A stretch of DNA of 64,000 nucleotides, from contig FIZJ01000016.1 of NCBI GenBank assembly GCA_900019385.1, positions 139,380-203,379 of the forward strand, given 5' to 3'. The stretch comes from an uncultured Clostridia bacterium (GTDB lineage: Bacteria; Bacillota; Limnochordia; Darwinibacteriales; DTU012). Positions 36,128 to 56,477 of this stretch are shown one piece after another. The first letter of the stretch is position 1, and each line of letters opens with the position of its first letter. The notes beneath the pieces were generated by a model. It was not told the origin of the DNA and did no database searches. It saw nothing but the letters and a program-made list of their open reading frames with translations. Both the position numbers and the translations under genes were made by a program.

Positions 36128-37114
36128 CTAGGCCACCGGCATTTTGAAGCCCATTGCCTCCCGCACTTCCTCCATTGTCGCCTGGGCAAGCTTCCGGGCC
36201 TGCTTGGCGCCGGCATCGAGAATTTCCATCAATTCTGCTTGCTTGGCCAATAGATCAAATGTCCGCTCCCTGATTGGTGCCAGAGCCCTGACGATAGCTT
36301 CGCCGAGTTCATACTTTAAATCGGCGTAGCGGAGAGTCTGATTGGCATAGTCTGCCCGGAATCGCTCAACCAGCGCTGGTTCGGCGAAGGCTTCCAGGAG
36401 TGTGAAAAGGTTCTTCACACCCGGCCCCATCTCTCCGCCCTGCGGGCCCACATCCGTCACTGCGCGGCGGATTTTCTTGCGGATCGTGTCATCATCGTCG
36501 TCCATGGCAATATAACTGCCTTCGATACTCTTTGACATTTTGCTGGTGGGATCGTTCAAAGCCATGATCCGGGCAGTTTTGGTCAAAATCGGCTGCGGCT
36601 CTGGAAACACCTCCCCAAACATGGAGTTGAACCGCCTCGCGATTTCTCTGGTCAGCTCCAAATGCTGGATCTGGTCTTCCCCAACCGGTACAACTTCCGC
36701 TTTATAGATCAAAATATCTGAGGCCATCAAAACCGGATAATTCATCAACCCGGCAAAAACAGCTCCCTTATGCCGTTCCGCTTTTTCCTTGAACTGAGTC
36801 ATCCGCTCCAATGCGCCGATAGATGTGATACATGTGAACAGCCAGGTCAGTTCTGTGTGTTCCGGTACCGATGACTGGACGAACAAAACAGACTTCTCCG
36901 GATCGATTCCTGACGCTATCAAAGTGGCAGCCAGCTCCAAAACACGCTTGTGAAGCAGCTCTGGCTCATACTCAACTGTAATGGCGTGGTAATCCACGAT
37001 ACAGAACAAGCTTTCATACTTGTGCTGCAGTTCCACCCAGTTTTTGATCGCCCCCAGGTAATTGCCGATATGGATGTTTCCCGTTGGTTGAATCCCTGAA
37101 AAGACTCTCTGCAT
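36128..37114 (-). CDS. trpS: Tryptophanyl-tRNA synthetase
   Basis: Class I synthetase that charges tRNA-Trp. The N-terminal QRVFSGIQPTGNIHIGNYLG contains the HIGH-like HIGN; the second signature is NDPTSKMSKSIEGSYI (KMSKS). Also typical are ILIYKAEVVPVGEDQIQHLE and the tail with RERTFDLL. The start is at ATG 37114 (328 residues), the normal TrpS length, with GAGGAGGAAGG upstream. The longer frame to 37270 runs through the T-box leader and is not translated. Expression should respond to uncharged tRNA-Trp through the T-box at 37148-37417. rsm22 is downstream in the same unit. Confidence 0.97.
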   Translation of the reverse strand: MQRVFSGIQPTGNIHIGNYLGAIKNWVELQHKYESLFCIVDYHAITVEYEPELLHKRVLELAATLIASGIDPEKSVLFVQSSVPEHTELTWLFTCITSIGALERMTQFKEKAERHKGAVFAGLMNYPVLMASDILIYKAEVVPVGEDQIQHLELTREIARRFNSMFGEVFPEPQPILTKTARIMALNDPTSKMSKSIEGSYIAMDDDDDTIRKKIRRAVTDVGPQGGEMGPGVKNLFTLLEAFAEPALVERFRADYANQTLRYADLKYELGEAIVRALAPIRERTFDLLAKQAELMEILDAGAKQARKLAQATMEEVREAMGFKMPVA

Positions 37115-37147
37115 TGTTCCTTCCTCCTCATGCTGATCTAACGCCAT

Positions 37148-37178
37148 AAAAAAGATCCCGCCCCAAAGGGACGAGATC
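37148..37178 (-). terminator. Intrinsic terminator of the trpS T-box
   Basis: An 11-bp stem (37168-37178 with 37054-side partner 37154-37164, including G-U pairs) with a 3-nt loop, followed on the minus strand by TTTTTT (37148-37153). It competes with the T-box antiterminator. Confidence 0.9.
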
Positions 37179-37417
37179 ATCACTCGCGGTGCCACCCTAG
37201 TTAACTTATCCGAGATAAGTTCCCTCTTCGCCCGGTAACGGAGGCTTCCGGACCAGCCTACTTGCTGCATCAGGCAGGTTTCGGTGGACAGCTCCCGGGC
37301 CCATTCCCCAACTCCGCCTTACCGGTTTGCACCGCCCACCGGCTCTCTTAAAAGACTGGAATCAGGTACTCGCCCCTATCATCGCCATTTCGGATCTAGC
37401 GTTCCATTGCACTGCAC
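37148..37417 (-). ncRNA. T-box leader, tryptophan-specific
   Basis: The minus strand between csoR and trpS folds as a T-box riboswitch. The T-box itself is AGGGTGGCACCGCG (37185-37198). Stem I has the GCGAGTA bulge, the distal AGAGAG...GGTGGGCGGTGCAAACCGG features, and a specifier loop GAATGGGCCC with the codon TGG (Trp) at 37301-37303. The bulge UGGC pairs with the GCCA end of tRNA-Trp. It is followed by the terminator at 37148-37178. Uncharged tRNA-Trp should stabilise the antiterminator and turn on trpS and rsm22. Confidence 0.95.
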
Positions 37418-53099: not shown

Positions 53100-54251
53100 T
53101 CAAGTCAAGGCGTCATGCGCGTCCTGCAGGTATTGAATGATCTTCAGATTCTGCGGGCACACCGACTCGCAGCTGCCGCATTCGACACAGCGGGAGGCAT
53201 CGCGGCCTTCTTTGATCAGATGGCTGTACTGCCTTTTCCCTTCTTCGAGAACATTGTATATGGAGGCATGGTTAAAGATGCTGAAAACACGGGGAATACT
53301 CACTCCCTGCGGGCAGGGCATGCAGTAGCGGCAATCCGTGCAGTTGACCTTAACCCGCTGCTGGTAAAGCTGCCTGGCCTGCTCTATTAAATCTAGCTCT
53401 TCCTTGGACAAGGACATCGGCTTGGCATCAGCCATGGTGTTGAGATTCTCTCTAACTTCATCCAGCCTTCCCATGCCACTCAAGATCACTGATACTTCCG
53501 GAAAATTGGCTACCCACCGGAATGCCCATTCTGCCGGACTGCGCTTCACAGGGGCTTGATTCCAGACGGCCTGGATTTCGTCAGGGACATTCTGGGCAAG
53601 CCTCCCTCCCCGCAGCGGCTCCATGATCACCACGGCCAAACCTTTGTCAGACGCATAGCGCAGCCCTTCAACACCAGCCTGGTATTCCTGATCCATGTAG
53701 TTCAGCTGGATTTGGCAAAAATCCCAGCCATATCCATCCACTATTTCTTTGAATGTGTCAAGGTCATCGTGAAACGAAAATCCCGCGTGTTTGATCCGGC
53801 CGTCGGCCACAGCCCGATCCAAAAAGGACAGGATGTTGTGTTTCTTGACCTTGTCCCGCCAGGTGTTCTTGTTCAATGCATGGAGCAGATACATGTCCAC
53901 GTGGTCTGTCCCCAGTTTTGCCAGCTGCTCATTGAGAATTCGATCACAGTCCGCTTCCGATTCCACCAGCCACACCGGGAGCTTGGTCGCAAGATTAACT
54001 CGGCTACGGTAGCCGCCGGCCAGCGCTTTTCCAACCAAGACCTCGCTCTTGCCGCCATGGTAATTGTACGCTGTGTCAATGTAACTTACACCGTAGTCGA
54101 TGGCATGGCGGATCAGGAAAATGGCCTGCTGCTCATCGATGTTGCCCACATCACTGTCGAGCCTGGGTTCGGCCACAGTAGGCAAACGCATACACCCAAA
54201 GCCCAGCAGTGACACTTCCAGTCCTGTTCTGCCAAATTTACGCCGCTGCAA
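53100..54251 (-). CDS. Aldo/keto reductase with C-terminal 4Fe-4S domain
   Basis: NADP-linked aldo/keto reductase (about 383 residues). The TIM barrel has [24 protein letters not shown], the active-site [19 protein letters not shown] with Asp and Tyr, and the catalytic His region in [10 protein letters not shown]. The C-terminal 80 residues carry two cysteine clusters, [13 protein letters not shown] and [13 protein letters not shown], a ferredoxin-like pair of 4Fe-4S sites seen in the large anaerobe-specific branch. The start is placed at TTG 54251, with AAGGAG 9 nt upstream; the longer frame to 54290 or 54386 lacks a ribosome site and would run into fapA. The gene follows fapA by 104 bp, so it may be co-controlled by the c-di-GMP riboswitch. 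Confidence 0.92.
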
Positions 54252-54354
54252 TTGCTTACTCTCCTTTTCCAAAATCCTTGTTGTGTCCATATCTATAATA
54301 CGATGAGCAGCAGGGCAAATCCTGCCGGATGAAGATACAGGCAGTGCCAGGGTT

Positions 54355-56223
54355 CTAGACCGTAAGCTTTCTGGTGTAATTGGCAACTATCTTCTCGTCC
54401 TGGAGAGTGAATGCCACCTGCGACATTTCATAAGGCACTGGATATGTATAGATGCCAAACTGAAGATTCACATTGGAATGGATCAAGTCGGCCTTGACCG
54501 TGCCGTCAGCCGCTACCCTGACGTGAGTGATCGTGCCTCCGGGGCAGCCGAGCACATGGGAGGCGATTCCCGTTTGAGCATTCAACGATCCGCCGCGGCA
54601 TTCCCCTTGGATCCAGATGGAGTCTCCCGCTGTGAGCTTCGAATTGTACACCAATTCGCCCGTGGCTGTGATCTTGCCTGTCGCTTCAATCTCACTGTTC
54701 TGACAGTAATCGATTTCCACATCCACCTCGCTGGTGAGTTCAGCTTTTATCTCTTCCTGCAGCTCGAGGCATTCATCATAGAGTTCCTCGATGCATCTGA
54801 ATGAATCCAGTTTACAGTCCAGGTTCGCGATCCTGTGGAGAATCGGGTTGCCCAGGTCGATCAAGCTGCCTTTAAGCTGTTCCAGTGTTTTGAGATTCTT
54901 GTCCAAAGTAGCGAACTTCATTTCCAGAAGCAGCCTGATCAAGTACTCTTCGCCCCATGCCGCCGATTTTGTCTTTTCGAAATAAGGTTCCAGCTGTCTG
55001 CCTGCCTGGATCAACTCGGGCAGCTGAATAATTAGGCGCCCCAGGATCGAACCGATTTGGACCAGCCTGGTTTGGTCGGATCCGGCTATGATCTTGCTGC
55101 CGATCACCTTGCCGTGGACGGCTATATTGCCGTTGGCCACGATCTCGGCTTGATAGACATCTCCAACAACCACCACCCGGCCGCCGGCATGCACCTTCAG
55201 GCTTTCGTTGACATTGCCTCTAACCAGGACATCACCATAGAATTCAATATGGCCTGTGGTCAGATCAACATCCCCATTGATTTCCAGAAGTGGGATCACG
55301 CTCAAGCGCAGATCAGGCCCGCTTAGGCATGGACGGCCGTCAATGGTTGCCACGGCGATCCGCCCGTTGTCGATGAGCTGGACACCAGGGCCAACTTTGA
55401 GCACTTTGTTTTTTGGATCTCTTGGCTCGATTACTTCGCCGAACACCGACAGCCCGGGTTCGCCAAGCACAGGCGGCGTCCAGAACGCCAGGACGGTTCC
55501 TGCCTGGACACAGTTGATTGCTCCTTTGTTGTAATAATCGATCCGCTCGCTGTCGTCATTTTCCACCGGCAGCCGTTCGTCAAAACTGCAGACGTATTCC
55601 ACTTTGCCGTCTTGCGAAGGGCTGGGCGCCTTCCCTCTGGCAATGACAACGTCTTGATCTGCACAGCCTTGGCATGCCGCCTGGATCACCTTCCGCATAA
55701 TAGGCGCCTTGATGCCCAGACGCTTAAGTTCAGCGTGCACCAAACCCTCGTCAATAGGTTCAGGCGGGATCTCGCCGGCAGCCTGCCCGTCAATCCTCAA
55801 ACGCTGTGCCGGCAGGCAGTCAGGCGCCCGGTAAATTTTGCCCGGCACAAAACGCACTGACAGCACGACTTCCGTCCGGTCCTCGGAAACATGAACCTTG
55901 AACCTACTGACCGGTGCCTTTTGGGCAGGTACAACCTGCAGCAGATTCCCGTCGAAAACCACAGTCGGTTGGGTGACAAGCTGATTGTCATAATATACTG
56001 AAACATTTCGGCCTGGTATGATCACAGGCCATTTACCTTTCCCAGCCGGCTTCGTGTGGCTGATCACACCGCCGCTGACTGCGATCGTGCCGTCTCTGTC
56101 CAGATCCGGCTCTGCCCCGCCTTCGCCTGCCTGCATCGGCAAGTGCTCGTCCGCACAGGATTCTGCGCCACCCCGGCGCTGAGTGAGACGGACAACATTG
56201 CTCACTCTTTTCATTTCAACCAT
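54355..56223 (-). CDS. FapA family protein (DUF342, polymer-forming-type beta-helix)
   Basis: About 622 residues. The N-terminal quarter includes KPAGKGKWPVIIPGRNVSVYYDNQ; the DUF342 core (about 195-470) has the glycine/valine ladder typical of a right-handed beta-helix (VLVRGNVNESLKVHAGGRVVVVGDVYQAEIVANGNIAVHGKVIGSKI, in part), then a coiled coil (about 415-515, LIRLLLEMKFATLDKNLKTLEQL) and a second ladder (ATGKITATGELVYNSKLTAGD). FapA proteins are linked to flagellar assembly and to membrane or polymer scaffolds; direct activity unknown. The start is ATG 56223, 8 nt after GAGGAG. Upstream stands a c-di-GMP-I riboswitch, which makes motility or surface-structure control plausible. Confidence 0.86.
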   Translation of the reverse strand: MVEMKRVSNVVRLTQRRGGAESCADEHLPMQAGEGGAEPDLDRDGTIAVSGGVISHTKPAGKGKWPVIIPGRNVSVYYDNQLVTQPTVVFDGNLLQVVPAQKAPVSRFKVHVSEDRTEVVLSVRFVPGKIYRAPDCLPAQRLRIDGQAAGEIPPEPIDEGLVHAELKRLGIKAPIMRKVIQAACQGCADQDVVIARGKAPSPSQDGKVEYVCSFDERLPVENDDSERIDYYNKGAINCVQAGTVLAFWTPPVLGEPGLSVFGEVIEPRDPKNKVLKVGPGVQLIDNGRIAVATIDGRPCLSGPDLRLSVIPLLEINGDVDLTTGHIEFYGDVLVRGNVNESLKVHAGGRVVVVGDVYQAEIVANGNIAVHGKVIGSKIIAGSDQTRLVQIGSILGRLIIQLPELIQAGRQLEPYFEKTKSAAWGEEYLIRLLLEMKFATLDKNLKTLEQLKGSLIDLGNPILHRIANLDCKLDSFRCIEELYDECLELQEEIKAELTSEVDVEIDYCQNSEIEATGKITATGELVYNSKLTAGDSIWIQGECRGGSLNAQTGIASHVLGCPGGTITHVRVAADGTVKADLIHSNVNLQFGIYTYPVPYEMSQVAFTLQDEKIVANYTRKLTV

Positions 56224-56244
56224 CAAATACACTCCTCTTAGCAG

Positions 56245-56274
56245 AAATAATCATGGGCACCAAAAACGCCCACG
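56245..56274 (-). terminator. Hairpin between riboswitch aptamer and fapA
   Basis: CGTGGGC (56268-56274) pairs with GCCCATG (56252-56258), loop 9 nt, then ATTATTT on the minus strand. It fits the expression platform of the riboswitch as a weak terminator, ending about 22 nt before the fapA start. Confidence 0.5.
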
Positions 56275-56280
56275 GGTTAT

Positions 56281-56360
56281 TTCCGGCAGCTGGCTGGCCA
56301 CCAATTCTGATGGCCCCTATAGCTTTGCGTCCTTAGATTACTCTAAGTTTGCCCACGGAG
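56281..56360 (-). ncRNA. Cyclic-di-GMP-I (GEMM-I) riboswitch
   Basis: Minus-strand aptamer upstream of fapA. It has the conserved GGGCAAAC (56347-56354), a P2-type stem CTTAGA/TCTAAG closed by the GNRA tetraloop GTAA (56338-56341), the invariant GACGCAAAGC (56322-56331), and a second hairpin with GGCCATC...GGTGGCC and AGCCAGCTGCC, the tetraloop-receptor and 3' pairing arm. All match the class I consensus. The hairpin at 56245-56274 follows as the probable switch element. Direction of control (on or off) is not certain. Confidence 0.93.
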
Positions 56361-56369
56361 ACCACAAGA

Positions 56370-56398
56370 ATTATACTCAAATTGCCAAAGGGCGTCAA
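56370..56398 (-). promoter_or_regulatory. Promoter of the riboswitch-fapA transcript
   Basis: TTGACG (56393-56398) and perfect TATAAT (56370-56375) on the minus strand, spacer 17 bp. Transcription would start about 56362, directly before the aptamer. Confidence 0.85.
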
Positions 56399-56477
56399 CC
56401 ATTTCCACAGAGCGAGGCTAAATTTTTAGACTTATCTAACATCAATGTCATTTATATTAATTATTTCCTTTTTGTCG

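Follow-up and report, generated by a model that had tools for sequence, protein, structure and literature searches.

A conserved c-di-GMP-I riboswitch predicted to control fapA in an uncultured Clostridia bacterium

Introduction

We propose that a c-di-GMP-I (GEMM-I) riboswitch, transcribed from its own promoter, is likely to control fapA, a gene encoding a DUF342 protein of the Flagellar Assembly Protein A type, in an uncultured Clostridia bacterium. The window that we analysed is the whole 64,000-nucleotide stretch of contig FIZJ01000016.1, and within it promoter, aptamer, hairpin, Shine-Dalgarno site and fapA follow one another in this order, all within about 180 bases. Such control, suggested by a first-pass annotation of the same DNA, is well supported by the position of the aptamer, its promoter, its covariance score and its deep conservation. 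The features to which we refer, all on the minus strand, are:

56370 to 56398, minus strand: sigma-70-type promoter TTGACG-17-TATAAT, 11 of 12 consensus positions
56282 to 56363, minus strand: c-di-GMP-I (GEMM-I) aptamer, RF01051, model positions 1-87
56243 to 56284, minus strand: hairpin GGAAAUAA-CGUGGGC-loop-GCCCAUG-UUAUUUCU, a candidate expression platform that resembles a terminator but has no clean U-tract
56232 to 56238, minus strand: Shine-Dalgarno site AGAGGAG of fapA, read from the sequence, conserved in the congener G003 and nearly so in G004
54355 to 56223, minus strand: fapA (DUF342 / Flagellar Assembly Protein A), ATG start, 622 amino acids, PF20250 and PF03961
54291 to 54326, minus strand: conserved non-coding element upstream of the reductase gene, GCAGGATTT...TCATCGTA.TATA, found whole or in part in five genomes
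53100 to 54251, minus strand: aldo/keto reductase with a C-terminal 4Fe-4S dicluster domain (PF00248, 2.5e-37; PF13187, 1.3e-8), a doubtful member of the unit

The aptamer and its ligand pocket

The covariance search that had been suggested as a check on the aptamer returned a full-length match to RF01051 (1-87 of 87 model positions) at 60.3 bits (gathering score 35), with an E-value of 2.6e-9 for the 64 kb and all families. The complete GEMM-I aptamer that had been placed at 56281-56360 is therefore real, its true span, 56282-56363, differing by a few bases. In the whole window just two Rfam matches lie above their curated cut-offs, one being this c-di-GMP-I aptamer; a T-box leader (RF00230, 130.6 bits) is found at 37164-37391 on the minus strand, just upstream of and overlapping an open reading frame (36128-37270) that looks like a tryptophan--tRNA ligase gene.

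By alignment the pocket is of the c-di-GMP type, with a G at the G20-equivalent position (56353), the conserved GCAAAGC and the 3' C. The G20-equivalent position sets ligand choice, and a G favours c-di-GMP over cGAMP (PMC9262584); specificity for cGAMP was accordingly rejected, as the selectivity position is G and not A. Judged by this alignment the window RNA is a c-di-GMP-I aptamer, with c-di-GMP as its predicted ligand.

Comparison of three congeners, namely the window and the genomes G003 and G004, shows that aptamer core and promoter are near-identical while the flanks diverge. All three carry a GUAA or GCAA tetraloop instead of GAAA (GUAA in the window), and all three lack the CUAAG...UAUG 11-nt tetraloop receptor, although a plain-helix receptor is possible in the window aptamer. 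Docking of a GNRA tetraloop into a P3 receptor is common among c-di-GMP-I riboswitches and is not known to be required. Since loss of the 11-nt receptor accompanies the tetraloop change in every one of the three, the change looks like a coordinated swap. From these alignments the genus has kept the ligand pocket and lost the GAAA/11-nt receptor contact, which is a small genus-level variation in tertiary contacts. The variant class c-di-GMP-I-UAU (RF03168) resembles the window aptamer in its GUAA tetraloop and in a plain P3 helix without the 11-nt receptor, and is the best-scoring model for the G003 copy; however, the U positions of the UAU consensus are G and C in the window. We rejected this class, because the window is called as RF01051 and even the G003 copy reaches 58.4 bits against a cut-off of 65.9.

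The leader between promoter and fapA

The promoter is conserved in both G003 and G004, where TTGACC...TATAAT occupies the corresponding place; in the window it ends 6 bases before the aptamer, so that transcription is expected to start at about the first bases of the aptamer. Two further claims of the first-pass annotation, a strong promoter directly ahead of the aptamer and a weak terminator-like hairpin after it, are thus borne out, the hairpin at 56274-56252 (minus strand) having the tail ATTATTTCTG and a poor U-tract. Counterpart hairpins are visible in G003 and G004, and across the genus GGAAAUAA-type and UUAUUUCU-type flanks pair with each other and enclose a variable core, with a clean U-tract absent throughout. 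The window hairpin region is unexceptional against shuffled sequences (z -0.33), and by eye no covariation was found for the hairpin across the three sequences, in which the changes are one-sided. From the end of the aptamer to the fapA ATG at 56223 there are 58 bases.

The CGUGGGC in the 5' strand of the window aptamer is a copy of the hairpin's own 5' arm, and with this motif present twice in the leader either the aptamer 5' strand or the hairpin arm can pair with GCCCAUG. The two predicted folds, aptamer plus hairpin (-48.9) and anti-aptamer (-49.9), lie within 1 kcal/mol of each other.

FapA and the conservation of its riboswitch

The identification of fapA by the first-pass annotation stands, both Pfam domains scoring above their cut-offs: FapA_N at 115.8 bits (E 1.9e-33, cut-off 27) and the beta-solenoid at 99.7 bits (E 2.8e-28, cut-off 31). 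The protein shares PF20250 and PF03961 with the FapA/DUF342 family, and both domains are present in all 15 subfamily members compared. Against solved structures, the solenoid gave only a short, weak match to MinC.

The pairing of a FapA gene with GEMM-I had been called unusual, a description that did not hold. Among 61 genomes of relatives, the window's own included, we found 129 RF01051 matches, spread over 50 genomes, and homologues of the window FapA in 51; comparison of coordinates places GEMM-I directly upstream of fapA on the same strand for 20 of the 129 matches, in 19 genomes, against a chance expectation of roughly 0.1%, which is our own estimate from about 2 fapA per about 2200 genes and a random fall of aptamers on genes. 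A protein profile was also used to fetch 35 fapA loci from named genomes, of which most are assemblies of uncultured Bacillota; 19 of these loci have RF01051 just upstream and 1 has the related RF03167. Several assemblies occur in both sets, so these are not independent counts. At least 5 more genomes, from 3 other, more distant families, show this arrangement in an evenly drawn sample of the phylum. Another aptamer variant occupies this position at L088:717-850, where a distant fapA is preceded by c-di-GMP-I-GGC (RF03167, 63.6 bits).

On a tree of FapA proteins the window sequence falls within a clade supported at 100/100, in which 17 of the 19 members are riboswitch-linked; the two that are not both come from the genome G001, where the switch has been lost at the locus equivalent to that of the window. 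The clustering of the riboswitch label on this tree was equalled in none of 500 shuffles. Relatives carry the same switch before the same gene, which makes the pairing a conserved unit of regulation and no oddity, and because it is common to nearly the whole FapA subfamily it is also old. On this comparative evidence the riboswitch-gene unit is genuine and conserved, and of a kind already known.

Direction of control

Outside the window's genus, a strong hairpin with a U-run and then a Shine-Dalgarno site are found in most leaders. The terminators of these relatives begin 0-14 nt after the aptamer (44 nt in G017), and their 5' arm or loop complements the aptamer 3' strand, as in CCAGCCAGUU against AACUGCCUGG. 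For nearly all leaders, the duplex between the downstream region and the aptamer 3' strand is more stable than in dinucleotide shuffles (mean z -1.35, n=24); the pooled z of -6.6 is inflated by relatedness and overstates the independence of the 24 leaders. A count of loop against aptamer variants (C-type with AGCU, 4/5; U-type with AACU, 7/15) is merely suggestive and was set aside as a measure of covariation. Terminator and antiterminator pairings are mutually exclusive in these leaders, so ligand binding should favour termination, and their anatomy makes a transcriptional OFF switch very likely for the relatives. ON behaviour found no support among the leaders examined.

A comparable system is Cd1 of Clostridioides difficile, a transcriptional OFF switch over flagellar genes, in whose antiterminator the aptamer 3' end pairs with downstream bases (PMC9262584). 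Cd1 belongs to the same aptamer family and has the 3'-end antiterminator layout of most fapA leaders examined. It differs in that it controls genes for flagellar proteins, whereas the switch in the window precedes a stand-alone fapA, and in that the window platform seems to rely on the 5' strand of the aptamer and to have a weaker terminator.

For the window leader, the mechanism that we propose would be as follows. At low c-di-GMP an aptamer strand would pair with the terminator region and transcription would read into fapA; with c-di-GMP bound the aptamer would close, the downstream hairpin would form and fapA transcription would fall, so that surface-attached cells, high in c-di-GMP, would have less of a motility-related protein. 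We lean towards this OFF direction for the window with less assurance than for its relatives, because the terminator is weak and the competing pairing (CGUGGGC/GCCCAUG) lies on the aptamer 5' strand and not on the 3' strand. Most relatives have both terminator and antiterminator, whereas the window hairpin lacks a U-tract and its competing fold differs; the 3'-strand antiterminator pairing of the relatives, when sought in the window, was not significant (z -0.41). The output direction of the genus is less certain for these reasons: a missing receptor contact, and a hairpin that is weaker and not poly-U.

Alternative explanations

If the hairpin is no terminator, the aptamer of the window's genus could control fapA at the level of translation or as an ON switch. 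The weak tail without poly-U is compatible with this, as is the aptamer-formed fold, in which a 5' CUCC and the Shine-Dalgarno GGAG are paired, so that translation would be blocked with ligand bound. However, G004 has UUUUC in place of the CUCC, for which reason sequestration of the Shine-Dalgarno site was rejected as the main mechanism; relatives clearly use terminators, and the leaders give ON behaviour no support. We consider control of this kind unlikely. Far less probable still is that the aptamer is decaying or non-functional. Its 60.3 bits compare with 86.5 and 83 for the other two aptamers of the genome, its 11-nt receptor is absent and the switch is gone from this locus in G001, but core and promoter have stayed near-identical in three congeners whose flanks diverged, and tetraloop change and receptor loss occur together in all three, as in a coordinated swap.

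The first-pass annotation had also suggested that the riboswitch might govern the reductase, whose aldo/keto reductase and 4Fe-4S dicluster domains Pfam confirms. A single operon with fapA would fit the shared strand, the 103-base gap from the fapA stop codon to the reductase start (TTG at 54251, Shine-Dalgarno AGGAGAG) and the lack of any terminator-like site found in that gap on this strand. It would also fit G003, in which aptamer and downstream reductase persist beside a fapA remnant. Yet the two genes adjoin only in the window, G004 and G003; in G001 thioredoxin-like and DsbD-type genes lie between them, in G005 a divergent spore photoproduct lyase gene does, and in other families no reductase match was found in flanks of up to 1.5 kb beside fapA. 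The reductase has, moreover, its own conserved upstream element, in which GCAGGATTT is shared and TCATCGTA.TATA is present in most genomes, the genes upstream differing between genomes; from its sequence, 54291-54326 is possibly the reductase's own promoter region. A conserved fapA-reductase operon was rejected, as synteny breaks outside close congeners, and we regard riboswitch control of the reductase as improbable: the gene is probably expressed mainly from its own promoter, with read-through from fapA possible. In G003 (L063:2494-2888) the aptamer is kept and the reductase is intact, with fapA cut to N- and C-terminal remnants; retention of the aptamer after most of fapA was lost may reflect some read-through role or a recent deletion.

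Other c-di-GMP elements

A circuit leading from a FIST sensor and a GGDEF-HD-GYP enzyme to fapA had been proposed as well. Both genes exist in the window, FIST at 8089-6989 and the PAS-GGDEF-HD protein at 6992-5202, with a 4-bp overlap; the pair lies about 48 kb from the riboswitch, and the genome holds nine GGDEF matches and three GEMM-I switches, that of the window included. We found no tie between this enzyme and the fapA switch, and the circuit is speculative and non-specific. The second GEMM-I of the genome (L001:1501-1585, 86.5 bits) is followed by a U-run hairpin that holds ACCCGUGG, the complement of its aptamer's CCACGGGU, and precedes a short pilin-like open reading frame, an A24 prepilin peptidase gene and a TadE-like gene. 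The third (L002:1501-1584, 83 bits) lies upstream of a 158-amino-acid, secreted-looking open reading frame whose N-terminus is signal-like and which matches neither Pfam nor NCBIfam.

Implications for FapA

The genome encodes a flagellar FlhA, and from its domains the window FapA is a putative motility-related protein of the flagellar-assembly type. A second FapA (L072:2058-4052) has a Jag_N domain, follows cheB- and cheR-like genes and falls outside the riboswitch-linked clade to which the window protein belongs; a riboswitch was looked for at its locus and none was found. We tentatively suggest that the two paralogs may follow different logic, the Jag_N protein belonging to a chemotaxis cluster without a riboswitch and the other, from a separate clade, being under a direct c-di-GMP riboswitch. 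Our literature search, which covered open-access papers without their supplements, found none linking FapA/DUF342 to a c-di-GMP riboswitch.

A conserved cis-regulatory RNA would thus link the poorly understood and widespread FapA/DUF342 proteins to c-di-GMP, and the pairing offers a direct clue to a role of this FapA subfamily in the decision between motile and attached life. If the two paralogs do follow different logic, the riboswitch-linked FapA would be a dedicated c-di-GMP output in the switch from the motile to the attached state.
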